From contig PAPI01000004.1 in NCBI GenBank assembly GCA_002708845.1, positions 124,001 through 188,000 on the forward strand: a DNA stretch of 64,000 bases, given 5' to 3'. The notes under the pieces are model-generated. The model made no database searches, was not told the origin of the DNA, and saw only the letters and a list, made by a program, of their open reading frames with translations. Of this stretch, positions 61,294-63,397 are shown in pieces; the first letter of the stretch is position 1, and every line of letters begins with the position of its first letter. Origin of the DNA: Leeuwenhoekiella sp. GTDB lineage: Bacteria > Bacteroidota > Bacteroidia > Flavobacteriales > Flavobacteriaceae. The position numbers were made by a program, and so were the translations under genes.

Positions 61294-62433
61294 CTAATTT
61301 AATGCTTTTACCGCACGAGCAATCACGCTTTCAATCGTGGTTGCGTTAGCTACAGTAAACTGGTCTGTATAATTTTGAACTTCGGCAGCAGTGGTGTTTC
61401 CTATACATACCGCAAGTGTATTTTCTAATGAATTTTGTTGTGCAAAGCTCTGCACTCCGCTTGGACTAAAAAACAAAACTGCATCAAATTTTTGTTCGAA
61501 TTTTTTATTGTTTAAGCTGGTTTTATAAACTTCAATCTCCTGAAAACGAAGCCTGTTTTCGTTTAAAATTTGTGGCAATTCGTCTCTTCGCTTGTTTCCG
61601 CAGAAAAAGCAAAAATGCTCGTTTTTATAGTTTTTTGTGATAAAATCAGCTAATTCTGAGGCGTTTTGACCAGTTTTGACAACTTTTAAGCCGTTTTTTA
61701 AAAGTAAAGCTTCGGTTTTTGAACCTACGCAGAAGCACCTCACCCCAGCCCTCTCCTCAAGGAGAGGGGGTTGGTTTACATTTGCATTAGAAACATTCCG
61801 CTCAACTAATTTTTTCAAAAAAGCTTTAACCGCATTTTGACTCGTAAAAATTAGATTTTCTAATTGCTGCGGAAGATTAAAATCCAGAAAATCAATTTTA
61901 ATAGCGACATATTCCACCATCGAAAAACCGGCTCCCAGAATCAGATTCTTTTGAGAGGGCGTTAGTTTTTTTGTGGAGAGCACCCTCACCCCAGCCCTCT
62001 CCCTCGAGGGAGAGGGGGCCTTCATCCCACCTTCAATCCCTCTCTCGCCTGAGAGTGGAGCTTTATCTTTACTCTGCAAAGCCGCTTTTTCTTCTTGGTA
62101 ATGAACTATTTCATGTAGTATTTTCTTAGGATCTTTGAAGACATCATCATTAGTAAATCGGAGTACTTTATAACCCAAAGCCTTAAGATGTAAATCACGG
62201 ATTTCGTCTTTTTCTTTTTGCTCAGGATGGTTGTGGTAACCGCCATCTAATTCGATAACGAGTTCTATCTCATAACAGAAAAAATCGACAATATAATTTT
62301 TTAGGGGATGCTGCCTGCGGAATTTAAGACCATTTACTTTGCGACCACGAAGCAACTCCCAAAGCACTTTTTCTGCTTCGGTAAGCTCTTGCCTAAGCAG
62401 GCGTGCAAATTTTATGTGATTGCTTCGTTTCAT
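61294..62433 (-). CDS. hemD: DUF559 nuclease-like domain fused in frame to uroporphyrinogen-III synthase
   Basis: One frame of 379 residues made of two unrelated parts. Residues 1-115 are a complete DUF559 domain (Vsr/PD-(D/E)XK-like: RQELTEAEKVLWELLRGRKV, GLKFRRQHPLKNYIVDFFCYE, LVIELDGGYH, LRFTNDDV). Residues 125-150 are repeat-encoded and end ERAGVR. Residues 151-379 are HemD, which closes hydroxymethylbilane to uroporphyrinogen III (LSTKKLTPSQ, IFTSQNAVKAF, CFCVGSKTEALL, FFSPSGVQSF). The HemD part lacks its own Met where the family starts; the insertion seems to have replaced the first codon or codons. A second repeat insert is at 221-232. Whether the fusion is made, split, or started internally is unknown. 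Confidence 0.82.
   Translation of the reverse strand: MKRSNHIKFARLLRQELTEAEKVLWELLRGRKVNGLKFRRQHPLKNYIVDFFCYEIELVIELDGGYHNHPEQKEKDEIRDLHLKALGYKVLRFTNDDVFKDPKKILHEIVHYQEEKAALQSKDKAPLSGERGIEGGMKAPSPSRERAGVRVLSTKKLTPSQKNLILGAGFSMVEYVAIKIDFLDFNLPQQLENLIFTSQNAVKAFLKKLVERNVSNANVNQPPLLEERAGVRCFCVGSKTEALLLKNGLKVVKTGQNASELADFITKNYKNEHFCFFCGNKRRDELPQILNENRLRFQEIEVYKTSLNNKKFEQKFDAVLFFSPSGVQSFAQQNSLENTLAVCIGNTTAAEVQNYTDQFTVANATTIESVIARAVKALN
61736..61773 (+). repeat. REP-type palindromic repeat inside hemD
   Basis: CTCACCCCAGCCCTCTCC (61739-61756), then TCAA, then GGAGAGGG (61761-61768): a perfect 8-bp hairpin. The 18 bases 61739-61756 are identical to 61985-62002. It encodes QPPLLEERAGVR within HemD, in frame. 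Confidence 0.8.
61981..62061 (+). repeat. REP-type repeat at the DUF559-HemD junction
   Basis: CTCACCCCAGCC leads into a perfect 22-bp palindrome (61995-62016, CCCTCTCCCTCGAGGG...), followed by a second small hairpin CTCTC-GCCT-GAGAG (62042-62055). It encodes the linker ending SRERAGVR of the fusion. Confidence 0.8.
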
Positions 62434-62439
62434 AGTAAC

Positions 62440-62477
62440 TTCCTTCTCCCTTGGGAGAAAGATTGAGGATGAGGGGC
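62440..62477 (-). repeat. REP-type repeat upstream of the DUF559 start
   Basis: TTCTCCC (62444-62450) and GGGAGAA (62453-62459) form a hairpin, followed by GATTGAGGATGAGGGG. Read on the minus strand (CCCCTCATCC...CTTTCTCCC) it parallels the head of the plus-strand repeat at 61981, so the two are inverted around the DUF559 gene. Confidence 0.65.
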
Positions 62478-62479
62478 TT

Positions 62480-63397
62480 TTACAATTCCTTTTTAATTTC
62501 TACCATCAACTCGCGACCTCCTGATTCTAATATTTTGAGCGCGCACAGGCGACCAAAATTTTGCTGCTCAGAGACTGGTACGCTTTCTTCAATCTCCATT
62601 TTATTGCTTCCGTCAAGGCTAAAAAGAGCCCCGTGAAAGTAAATGCGATCGTCTTTAATTGCTGCATAAGCGCCAATGGGAGCAGTACAACCGCCTTCAA
62701 GTGTGCGTAAGAATTCACGTTCTATTCGTGTAGCGAGTTCAGCATTCTTATCATTAAGCTTGGCACAGGCTTCTTTGCAGAAAGTGTCATCATCCATCAC
62801 AGCAACTACCATCGCACCTTGTGCCGGTGCGGGAATCATCCAGTCCAGCACGATATGATTTTCAGGTTTCAGGTTGATACGTTCCAGACCGGCTTTTGCG
62901 AAAATGGCTCCCGCCCAGTCGTTGTCTTCAACTTTCTGAAGCCGTGTATTTACATTGCCGCGTAAATCAACAACGCTATGTTTTGGATATTTGTGCAGCC
63001 ATTGCGCTTTACGTCGCAAACTACCGGTTGCTATGGTCGTTGCATCTTCAAATGCAGTCGTGTTTTTTTCGCCCTTAAACACAAAAATATCTTCCTGCGC
63101 TGCGCGGGGTAAAACCGCTCCCTGAACGATGCCTTTGGGCAATTGCGTAGGCACATCTTTCATAGAATGCACGGCAATATCTACGCTGCCGTTGATCATC
63201 GCGACATCCAGGGTTTTGGTAAAAATCCCGGTAATACCGAGTTCGTAAAGGGGTTTGTCAAGGATGAGGTCGCCGGTAGATTTAACCGAAACCAGTTCTG
63301 TTTTATAACCCAATGCGTTAAGTTGATCCTGCACGGTATGGGCCTGCCAAAGCGCGAGTTCGCTATCGCGGGTGCCTATGCGTATGGTTTTTGCCAA
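62480..63397 (-). CDS. hemC: Hydroxymethylbilane synthase (porphobilinogen deaminase)
   Basis: A 305-residue enzyme that joins four porphobilinogens into hydroxymethylbilane. The dipyrromethane cofactor is carried on Cys237 in LEGGCTAPIGAYA; the other family marks are RIGTRDSELALWQA near 6-19, AVHSMKDVPTQLP (catalytic Asp81) and GSLRRKAQW near 125-133. The length is normal. It begins four bases after hemA ends. The repeat next to the DUF559 gene starts within three bases of its stop. Confidence 0.97.
   Translation of the reverse strand: MAKTIRIGTRDSELALWQAHTVQDQLNALGYKTELVSVKSTGDLILDKPLYELGITGIFTKTLDVAMINGSVDIAVHSMKDVPTQLPKGIVQGAVLPRAAQEDIFVFKGEKNTTAFEDATTIATGSLRRKAQWLHKYPKHSVVDLRGNVNTRLQKVEDNDWAGAIFAKAGLERINLKPENHIVLDWMIPAPAQGAMVVAVMDDDTFCKEACAKLNDKNAELATRIEREFLRTLEGGCTAPIGAYAAIKDDRIYFHGALFSLDGSNKMEIEESVPVSEQQNFGRLCALKILESGGRELMVEIKKEL

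Follow-up and report, generated by a model that had tools for sequence, protein, structure and literature searches.

A DUF559 nuclease unit in frame at the start of hemD in Leeuwenhoekiella, and candidate homing-type elements resident in enzymes of Bacteroidia

Organisation of the DUF559-HemD fusion locus

The window analysed here is a 64,000-nucleotide stretch of a Leeuwenhoekiella sp. contig (PAPI01000004.1, positions 124,001 to 188,000), in which a single minus-strand reading frame joins a DUF559 nuclease domain to HemD. The frame comprises 379 codons and a stop, without an internal stop, and Pfam places DUF559 at residues 7–111 (E 8.5e-37) and HEM4/HemD at residues 167–371 (E 3.5e-36). The features of the locus, in window coordinates, are:

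62480..63397, minus strand: hemC, the immediate upstream gene
62442..62474, minus strand: left end of the unit, a CCTCATCC tag with a hairpin, between the hemC stop and the DUF559 ATG
61294..62433, minus strand: DUF559-HemD fusion open reading frame (open frame and Pfam)
62101..62415, minus strand: DUF559 nuclease domain, residues 7–111 (Pfam, alignments and fold match)
61993..62070, minus strand: linker, residues 122–147, pLDDT <50 (AlphaFold2)
61984..62019, plus strand: right end of the unit, a CCTCACCCC tag with a hairpin
61297..61983, minus strand: HemD part, residues 151–379, native start codon absent (Pfam, alignments and model)
61738..61774, plus strand: second repeat copy, without DUF559, in frame inside hemD (..PPLLEERAGVR)

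A gap of 46 nt separates the hemC stop from the start codon of DUF559. Read on the minus strand, the right end of the unit codes for ..PSPSRERAGVR, and a 19-nt repeat core, CCTCACCCCAGCCCTCTCC, is found both there (61984–62002, in the linker) and inside hemD (61738–61756); the hemD gene of the congener G144 is without the inner repeat copy. A search allowing up to two mismatches located three copies of the core in the genome, the third of them in frame near the N-terminus of an open reading frame that is TrpF-like by eye. Close to its start, that frame (L066, around position 2423; C32 of the same genome) carries the CCTCACCCC repeat in frame, and farther downstream it has another repeat of a different kind (..RHAELVSASH..). 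The preliminary description of this DNA had read the locus as one open frame containing DUF559, a repeat-encoded linker and HemD from residue 151, and the frame and its Pfam matches bear this out.

In an AlphaFold2 model of the fusion, computed with 14 fused sequences, residues 3–121 and 149–379 are predicted to form separate domains, the latter, the HemD part, being modelled mostly with confidence. Foldseek matches this part to uroporphyrinogen-III synthases (3p9z, 9.7e-12). Judged from its HEM4 domain and modelled fold it is HemD, with activity in the fused state being only a prediction. The genome also encodes a second, intact HEM4-domain protein of 251 aa (L390:578-1333, corresponding to C9:14077-14832 of the same genome; Pfam 6.1e-32), so that losing the fused HemD may not be lethal and the earlier description of hemD as essential is uncertain. 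A weak second HemD match of this kind was obtained in 13 of 13 genus genomes, and two HemD-like proteins may coexist throughout the genus.

Occupied and empty hemD alleles and the age of the insert

The hemD insert is present in six of the 13 genomes in our genus sample, which counts the window's own (G000, G153, G144, G151, G154 and G158), and absent from the other seven (G155, G152, G156, G149, G150, G157 and G159). An empty site at the hemC-hemD junction of relatives, which had been proposed as a check on the insertion, is therefore available in just over half of the sample. In all seven empty alleles HemD starts at its own ATG, followed by two codons and [VI]LSTK, i.e. M-(K/Q/P)-x-[VI]LSTK, and because they begin in this way residue 151 of the fusion corresponds to native HemD minus its first codons. 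In the occupied alleles the native ATG has been lost, and native codons follow directly on the right end of the unit, consistent with the earlier observation that the HemD part lacks a Met of its own. In two of the empty alleles (G155 and G152) a CCTCATCCTC string stands directly before the ATG, like the left end of the occupied alleles; the string was not seen in the 50 bases upstream of HemD in 19 unfused genomes of other genera, and we read it as a putative deletion scar. Close pairs differ in hemD state, with hemD 95.0% identical between G144 and G150 and 93.8% identical between G153 and G155. In the empty G157 (L079), 629 nt without a DUF559 match separate hemC and hemD, and an unrelated gene may lie between them.

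The fusion is open in five further genomes of the genus and in eight further genera, and is for this reason no sequencing artefact; the stop or frame break between the two parts that had been named as grounds for doubt was not seen. At least ten fused HemDs were among the matches listed in a search of 397 family genomes, and eight of these matches, one for each genus outside that of the window, were confirmed as open fusions, which brings the total to nine genera. Within the genus, synonymous divergence is alike for DUF559, hemD and hemC, with one of the 15 occupied pairs reaching a nominal p <0.05 (0.044), and no excess similarity of the hemD inserts over host genes was found in this synonymous comparison, a weak test for these inserts since most distances are near saturation. 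The 11 hemD-type DUF559 sequences in our tree form one clade (support 0.93), whose neighbour is an insert in a type I restriction subunit. In the HemD tree fused sequences are interspersed with unfused ones, and the nuclease within hemD is under purifying selection (mean pN/pS 0.17 over 10 pairs, compared with 0.29 for HemD).

Taken together, the single clade, the spread over nine genera, the host-like synonymous divergence and the interleaved HemD tree make the hemD insertion look old, inherited and repeatedly lost. The last three of these observations led us to reject a recent, private insertion at hemD. The suggestion that a small mobile unit landed at the start of hemD thus stands as far as the repeat ends, the empty congener alleles and the open frame are concerned, and falls as regards a recent private event. 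A relative with the same fusion and no repeat had been put forward as the sign of an old fusion; the fused G079 comes part of the way, with only weak repeat traces visible by eye and an end score matched by 25 of 98 controls.

DUF559 in frame inside other enzymes

Occurrence of the same nuclease family in frame in many other enzymes lay beyond the reach of the preliminary description. The genome itself has only two DUF559 matches, and each lies in frame in the gene of a core enzyme, hemD in one case and leuS in the other. A survey of the family gave a DUF559 match in 72 of 149 genomes, and by hand count 28 of the 84 rows at E<=1e-20 lay within frames of at least 300 aa, one of the 28 being a frameshifted LeuS copy (G112). 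A survey of the class gave a match at 1e-15 in 153 of 395 genomes, with 82 of the best 150 rows within frames of at least 300 aa, again by hand count; 76 of these 82 were newly fetched and inspected. Inspection covered the best-scoring part of each survey. The collection comprises 116 elements, in 92 of which the open frame extends 100 residues or more to either side; five of the 116 are without a host name, and the frame of L185 contains a masked stretch.

Hosts identified by Pfam include methylmalonyl-CoA mutase and UvrA, each with two sites, together with MutS, RecJ, TsaD, HsdR, MetG, a class I tRNA synthetase, a valyl-type synthetase, a SpoIIE phosphatase, a UvrD-like helicase, guanylate kinase, chorismate synthase and adenine deaminase. 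Protein motifs gave the further host labels LeuS, MetH and RecG (two sites each), IleS, Acs, HisF, HisD, IlvA and TrpF. When named genomes were searched with a profile of the inserts, 75 of the best 80 loci lay in frames of at least 260 aa, and these best 80 were apparently all from Bacteroidota.

Short-frame, apparently free-standing DUF559 genes are common in both the family and the class surveys, and 18 of the 21 free-standing rows in the tree (two genes entered twice) fall into a separate clade (support 0.84). PADLOC returned weak matches only. Among the first 4 of 80 loci in a viral scan, L310 is a tRNA-synthetase-like protein (ValS by eye) with an insert, which lies near a contig end and may be host DNA; in the remaining three the DUF559 frame looks free-standing.

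The nuclease domain

The DUF559 domain of the window has all four putative active-site residues, D50, E61, D63 and H67, and in an alignment of the collected elements these positions are conserved as D in 116 of 116, E in 115, D in 114 and H in 114. The exceptions are the hemD copy of G079, with K for E, and the LeuS inserts of G113 and G002, which lack both the H and the second D and are apparently decayed remnants. The modelled nuclease part has a Foldseek match to 3hrl (6.9e-7) and a weak one to the I-Bth0305I catalytic domain (E 0.017, TM 0.74 by target length). I-Bth0305I is an EDxHD homing endonuclease of a mobile intron, and the nuclease also has a profile match to it (3r3p, 1.5e-6). By profile and by its conserved acidic and histidine residues the domain is a nuclease of DUF559/EDxHD type, with cleavage being predicted. 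Vsr-like homing nucleases were reportedly treated by Dassa et al. in 2009.

Unit ends, hairpins and solo repeats

The LeuS insert of this genome has the ends CCCCCTAGCCCCCAAAGGGGGAA and TTCCCCCTTTGGGGGTTAGGGGG, which are near-perfect inverted repeats, each with a hairpin. Over 109 elements, the other 7 of the 116 being omitted for short or N-bearing flanks, the left end scored a mean of 19.0 against the reverse-complemented right end of the same element, compared with 12.7 against right ends of other elements, 14.0 in direct orientation and 9.6 after shuffling (Wilcoxon p 9e-15; 89 of the 109 above their own control). For the window's hemD copy the inversion was not significant (score 15 versus 12.2; 23 of 98 controls as high), and the same was true of several of the other 10 hemD copies; the copy in L048 has significantly inverted ends (28; 0 of 98 controls). 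The ends of the window's hemD copy look decayed. Both in this copy and in the LeuS copies the insert ends encode repeat peptides.

The repeat motif occurs in seven of the 149 family genomes, all seven of which have a DUF559 match (72 of 149 overall), and a reversed control motif had no matches in the 149. This association is partly circular, as no fewer than 6 of the 51 motif places belong, judged by position, to hemD fusions, being their ends or inner repeats (two of the three in G000, one of two in G144, the only one in G039 and two of 27 in G135). Solo repeats are mostly intergenic, 39 of the 40 copies fetched (from the 51 places, in five genomes) lying outside long frames, and a rule that the repeat alone lands in frame was rejected on this count. 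The remaining copy (L431, G110) is in frame within a 760-aa frame; the DUF559 matches of G110 are partial pieces, one with a stop. In G023 (L413–L426) the hairpin motif is contained in a longer dispersed repeat found in short frames, in which the motif is followed by a similar stretch of about 40–45 codons.

Same-site movement between species at LeuS

Within the genus, LeuS site 1 carries two distinct nuclease lineages at the same position, one in G000, G144 and the far-diverged G158, and the other in G153, G156, G152, G149 and G159; the site is empty, with a short linker, in five of the 13 genomes. We compared synonymous differences in the insert with those in 100 flanking codons. Between G156 and G149 these amount to 4/104 in the insert and 24/67 in the flanks (p 4.5e-8), between G153 and G156 to 32/104 and 48/67 (p 1.8e-7), between G153 and G149 to 32/104 and 50/67 (p 2.4e-8), and between G000 and G144 to 15/94 and 24/66 (p 0.0047; 3.7e-8 against the whole host, 278/621). 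The difference is weaker for G152-G156 and G152-G149 (p 0.0046 and 0.012), and none was found for G152-G153 (p 0.27), so that six of the seven pairs have p <0.05. The drop in synonymous differences is sharp at the insert edges, and in the G156-G149 pair a near-identical insert occupies the same LeuS codons in two species. Because the inserts differ at far fewer synonymous positions than their flanks, with sharp edges, the comparison indicates that the LeuS insert moved horizontally into the same site. A clear co-conversion tract was not seen in the flanks of the moved site-1 inserts.

In the DUF559 tree, 33 LeuS site-1 inserts (decayed copies excluded) fall into 10 pure clades, 11 LeuS site-2 inserts into 6, 6 MetH-B inserts into 4 and 7 Acs inserts into 4, all of these clade counts being approximate because supports inside the tree are often low. 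At LeuS site 2, G144, G155, G152 and G157 have repeat ends without a nuclease, apparently deletion remnants, and the otherwise close G153 and G155 differ strongly, which suggests allele replacement.

The empty site-1 linkers of G150, G154 and G155 (L105, L106 and L107) contain other repeats (TCACTTCGAGCGCAGTCGAGAAGT; AATTCAGAATTC runs). The loop seems to collect different repeat types, and part of the recurrence at site 1 may for this reason reflect a permissive loop. In the LeuS of G159 (L109), additional left and right ends that lack a nuclease lie on either side of the DUF559 insert, the whole array being in frame and made up of nested or tandem units. An AlphaFold2 model of the LeuS fusion was discarded (mean pLDDT 50.6).

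Discussion

The comparisons establish, at the level of sequence, in-frame insertion at recurrent enzyme sites, empty alleles in congeners and inverted hairpin ends over the set as a whole, together with an intact putative active site, horizontal movement to the same site of LeuS, and loss that appears to leave scars or remnants. Two of the features by which homing is recognised can be followed at individual sites. A precise insert with empty congener alleles is seen at both hemD (7 of 13) and leuS (5 of 13), and movement between species into the same site is indicated for LeuS; within the genus, the hemD insert shows no trace of such movement. The explanation that we favour, and consider probable, is a homing-type selfish element, tolerated and translated as part of the host protein in which it persists.

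Such an element would be a gene for a single-domain nuclease, DUF559 (Vsr/EDxHD-like), bounded by short ends that contain hairpins. It would occupy loops or termini of conserved proteins in frame, and since it would be translated as part of the host protein it would need neither a promoter of its own nor protein splicing. The nuclease would cut the empty allele and repair would copy the element in (homing), with the ends presumably playing a part when the element moves to a new site. At hemD, an old insertion of the DUF559 family would have replaced the start codon, and HemD would for that reason most simply be made as DUF559-linker-HemD with two independently folded domains. Homing usually leaves a co-conversion tract, and a simple form of homing is weakened by the lack of clear co-conversion at LeuS site 1 and by the other repeats in empty linkers. 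Further points against the account are the non-significant inversion of the ends in the window's copy, the hemD inserts being no more alike than their host genes, the LeuS pair G152-G153 with no difference between insert and flanks, the mostly intergenic solo repeats, and the weakness of the Foldseek match to I-Bth0305I. For Bacteroidia at large, we regard it as somewhat better than an even prospect that there is a large unrecognised class of protein-resident, hairpin-ended DUF559 homing elements, intein-like parasites without splicing that would enter loops of essential enzymes without breaking the frame, remain part of the mature protein, spread horizontally from allele to allele, decay and get lost.

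The main rival to homing is a transposon-like role, in which DUF559 would act on the hairpin repeats as their transposase, by analogy with REPtrons, and without site preference, the in-frame cases being survivors and the recurrent sites permissive loops. The inverted hairpin ends fit this account, as do the DUF559 match in every motif-bearing family genome (partly circular as this is), the abundance of free-standing short-frame genes, and the other repeats in LeuS loops. However, the near-identical insert at the same LeuS codons in two species calls for site specificity, the free-standing copies mostly form a clade of their own, and nucleases of this fold serve in homing and repair and are not known as lone transposases; we consider the transposon-like account unlikely.

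Less probable still is an old DUF559-HemD fusion, joined once and kept because it is useful, for example in DNA repair or regulation. This would agree with the single clade of hemD-type DUF559s, their host-like divergence within the genus, the purifying selection on the nuclease and the presence of the fusion in nine genera, but seven of the 13 congeners, near-identical neighbours among them, do without the insert, the HemD tree mixes fused with unfused proteins, and the same nuclease is found in many proteins without an evident common function. We give equally little credence to translation of HemD as a separate protein from a start inside the linker, which would make the fusion merely apparent. 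Candidate in-frame starts, an ATG and GTG codons, do occur in the window's linker, immediately before the HemD part or at it, but the other fused congeners have only GTG or no usual start codon near HemD (both by eye), and this route is closed to the LeuS, MetH and other internal inserts, in which the frame continues on both sides.

If the homing-type element is indeed the right explanation, a selfish nuclease would persist inside essential enzymes without splicing by using loops that tolerate an extra folded domain, the 'unknown' DUF559 family would gain a role, and some domain insertions in core enzymes would be the trace of parasitism. The occupied and empty alleles would then offer ready pairs for testing homing, the tolerance of proteins to insertion, and a cycle of invasion, decay and loss.

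Relation to known systems

A DUF559-containing gene was assigned to the EDxHD homing family in 2022 (PMC9403480). The EDxHD homing endonucleases described are mainly phage enzymes with long DNA-binding regions beside the nuclease domain (PMC3943268), in contrast to the bare DUF559 domain found here fused into host enzymes. Rickettsia palindromic elements are likewise palindromic selfish DNA in frame inside unrelated genes (PMC10969869); they are ~150 bp long with a short peptide ORF and no nuclease, whereas the DUF559 unit has a nuclease between palindromic ends, and identity with these elements was rejected because the window's unit carries the nuclease domain. REPtrons, in which a RAYT nuclease gene lies between hairpin repeats with GTAG and solo repeats occur elsewhere, are similar in layout (PMC3733652). 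RAYTs are HUH tyrosine transposases, and DUF559 is a nuclease of PD-(D/E)XK/EDxHD type; the window's unit has hairpin ends and a DUF559 protein, and REPtron/RAYT identity was rejected. Caulobacter VsrA, a DUF559 protein with the same nuclease domain, causes an SOS response in cells lacking a cytosine methyltransferase and has been proposed as a mismatch-repair nuclease, in an account whose accessible text differs from ours in making no mention of fusion or mobility (PMC12907096). A literature search over titles and the starts of abstracts, with most subscription papers outside it, found no description of in-frame DUF559 insertions.

Inteins with a homing endonuclease lie in frame in conserved proteins, at recurrent sites, with empty alleles and an embedded nuclease. 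The DUF559 units share all of these properties with inteins and differ from them in having hairpin-containing DNA ends and in that the host protein appears to keep the insert. Intein splicing (Hint) blocks were not found in the window's fusion by Pfam with E up to 1, and an intein was rejected on this ground. Elsewhere in the family, a 717-aa frame of G125 (L046:2366-4516) has intein-like ends (..VHN-C) with a DUF559-like nuclease inside (DUF559 4.8e-13; Intein_splicing 2.2e-6, under the curated cut-off) and is a probable intein whose endonuclease is DUF559-like.
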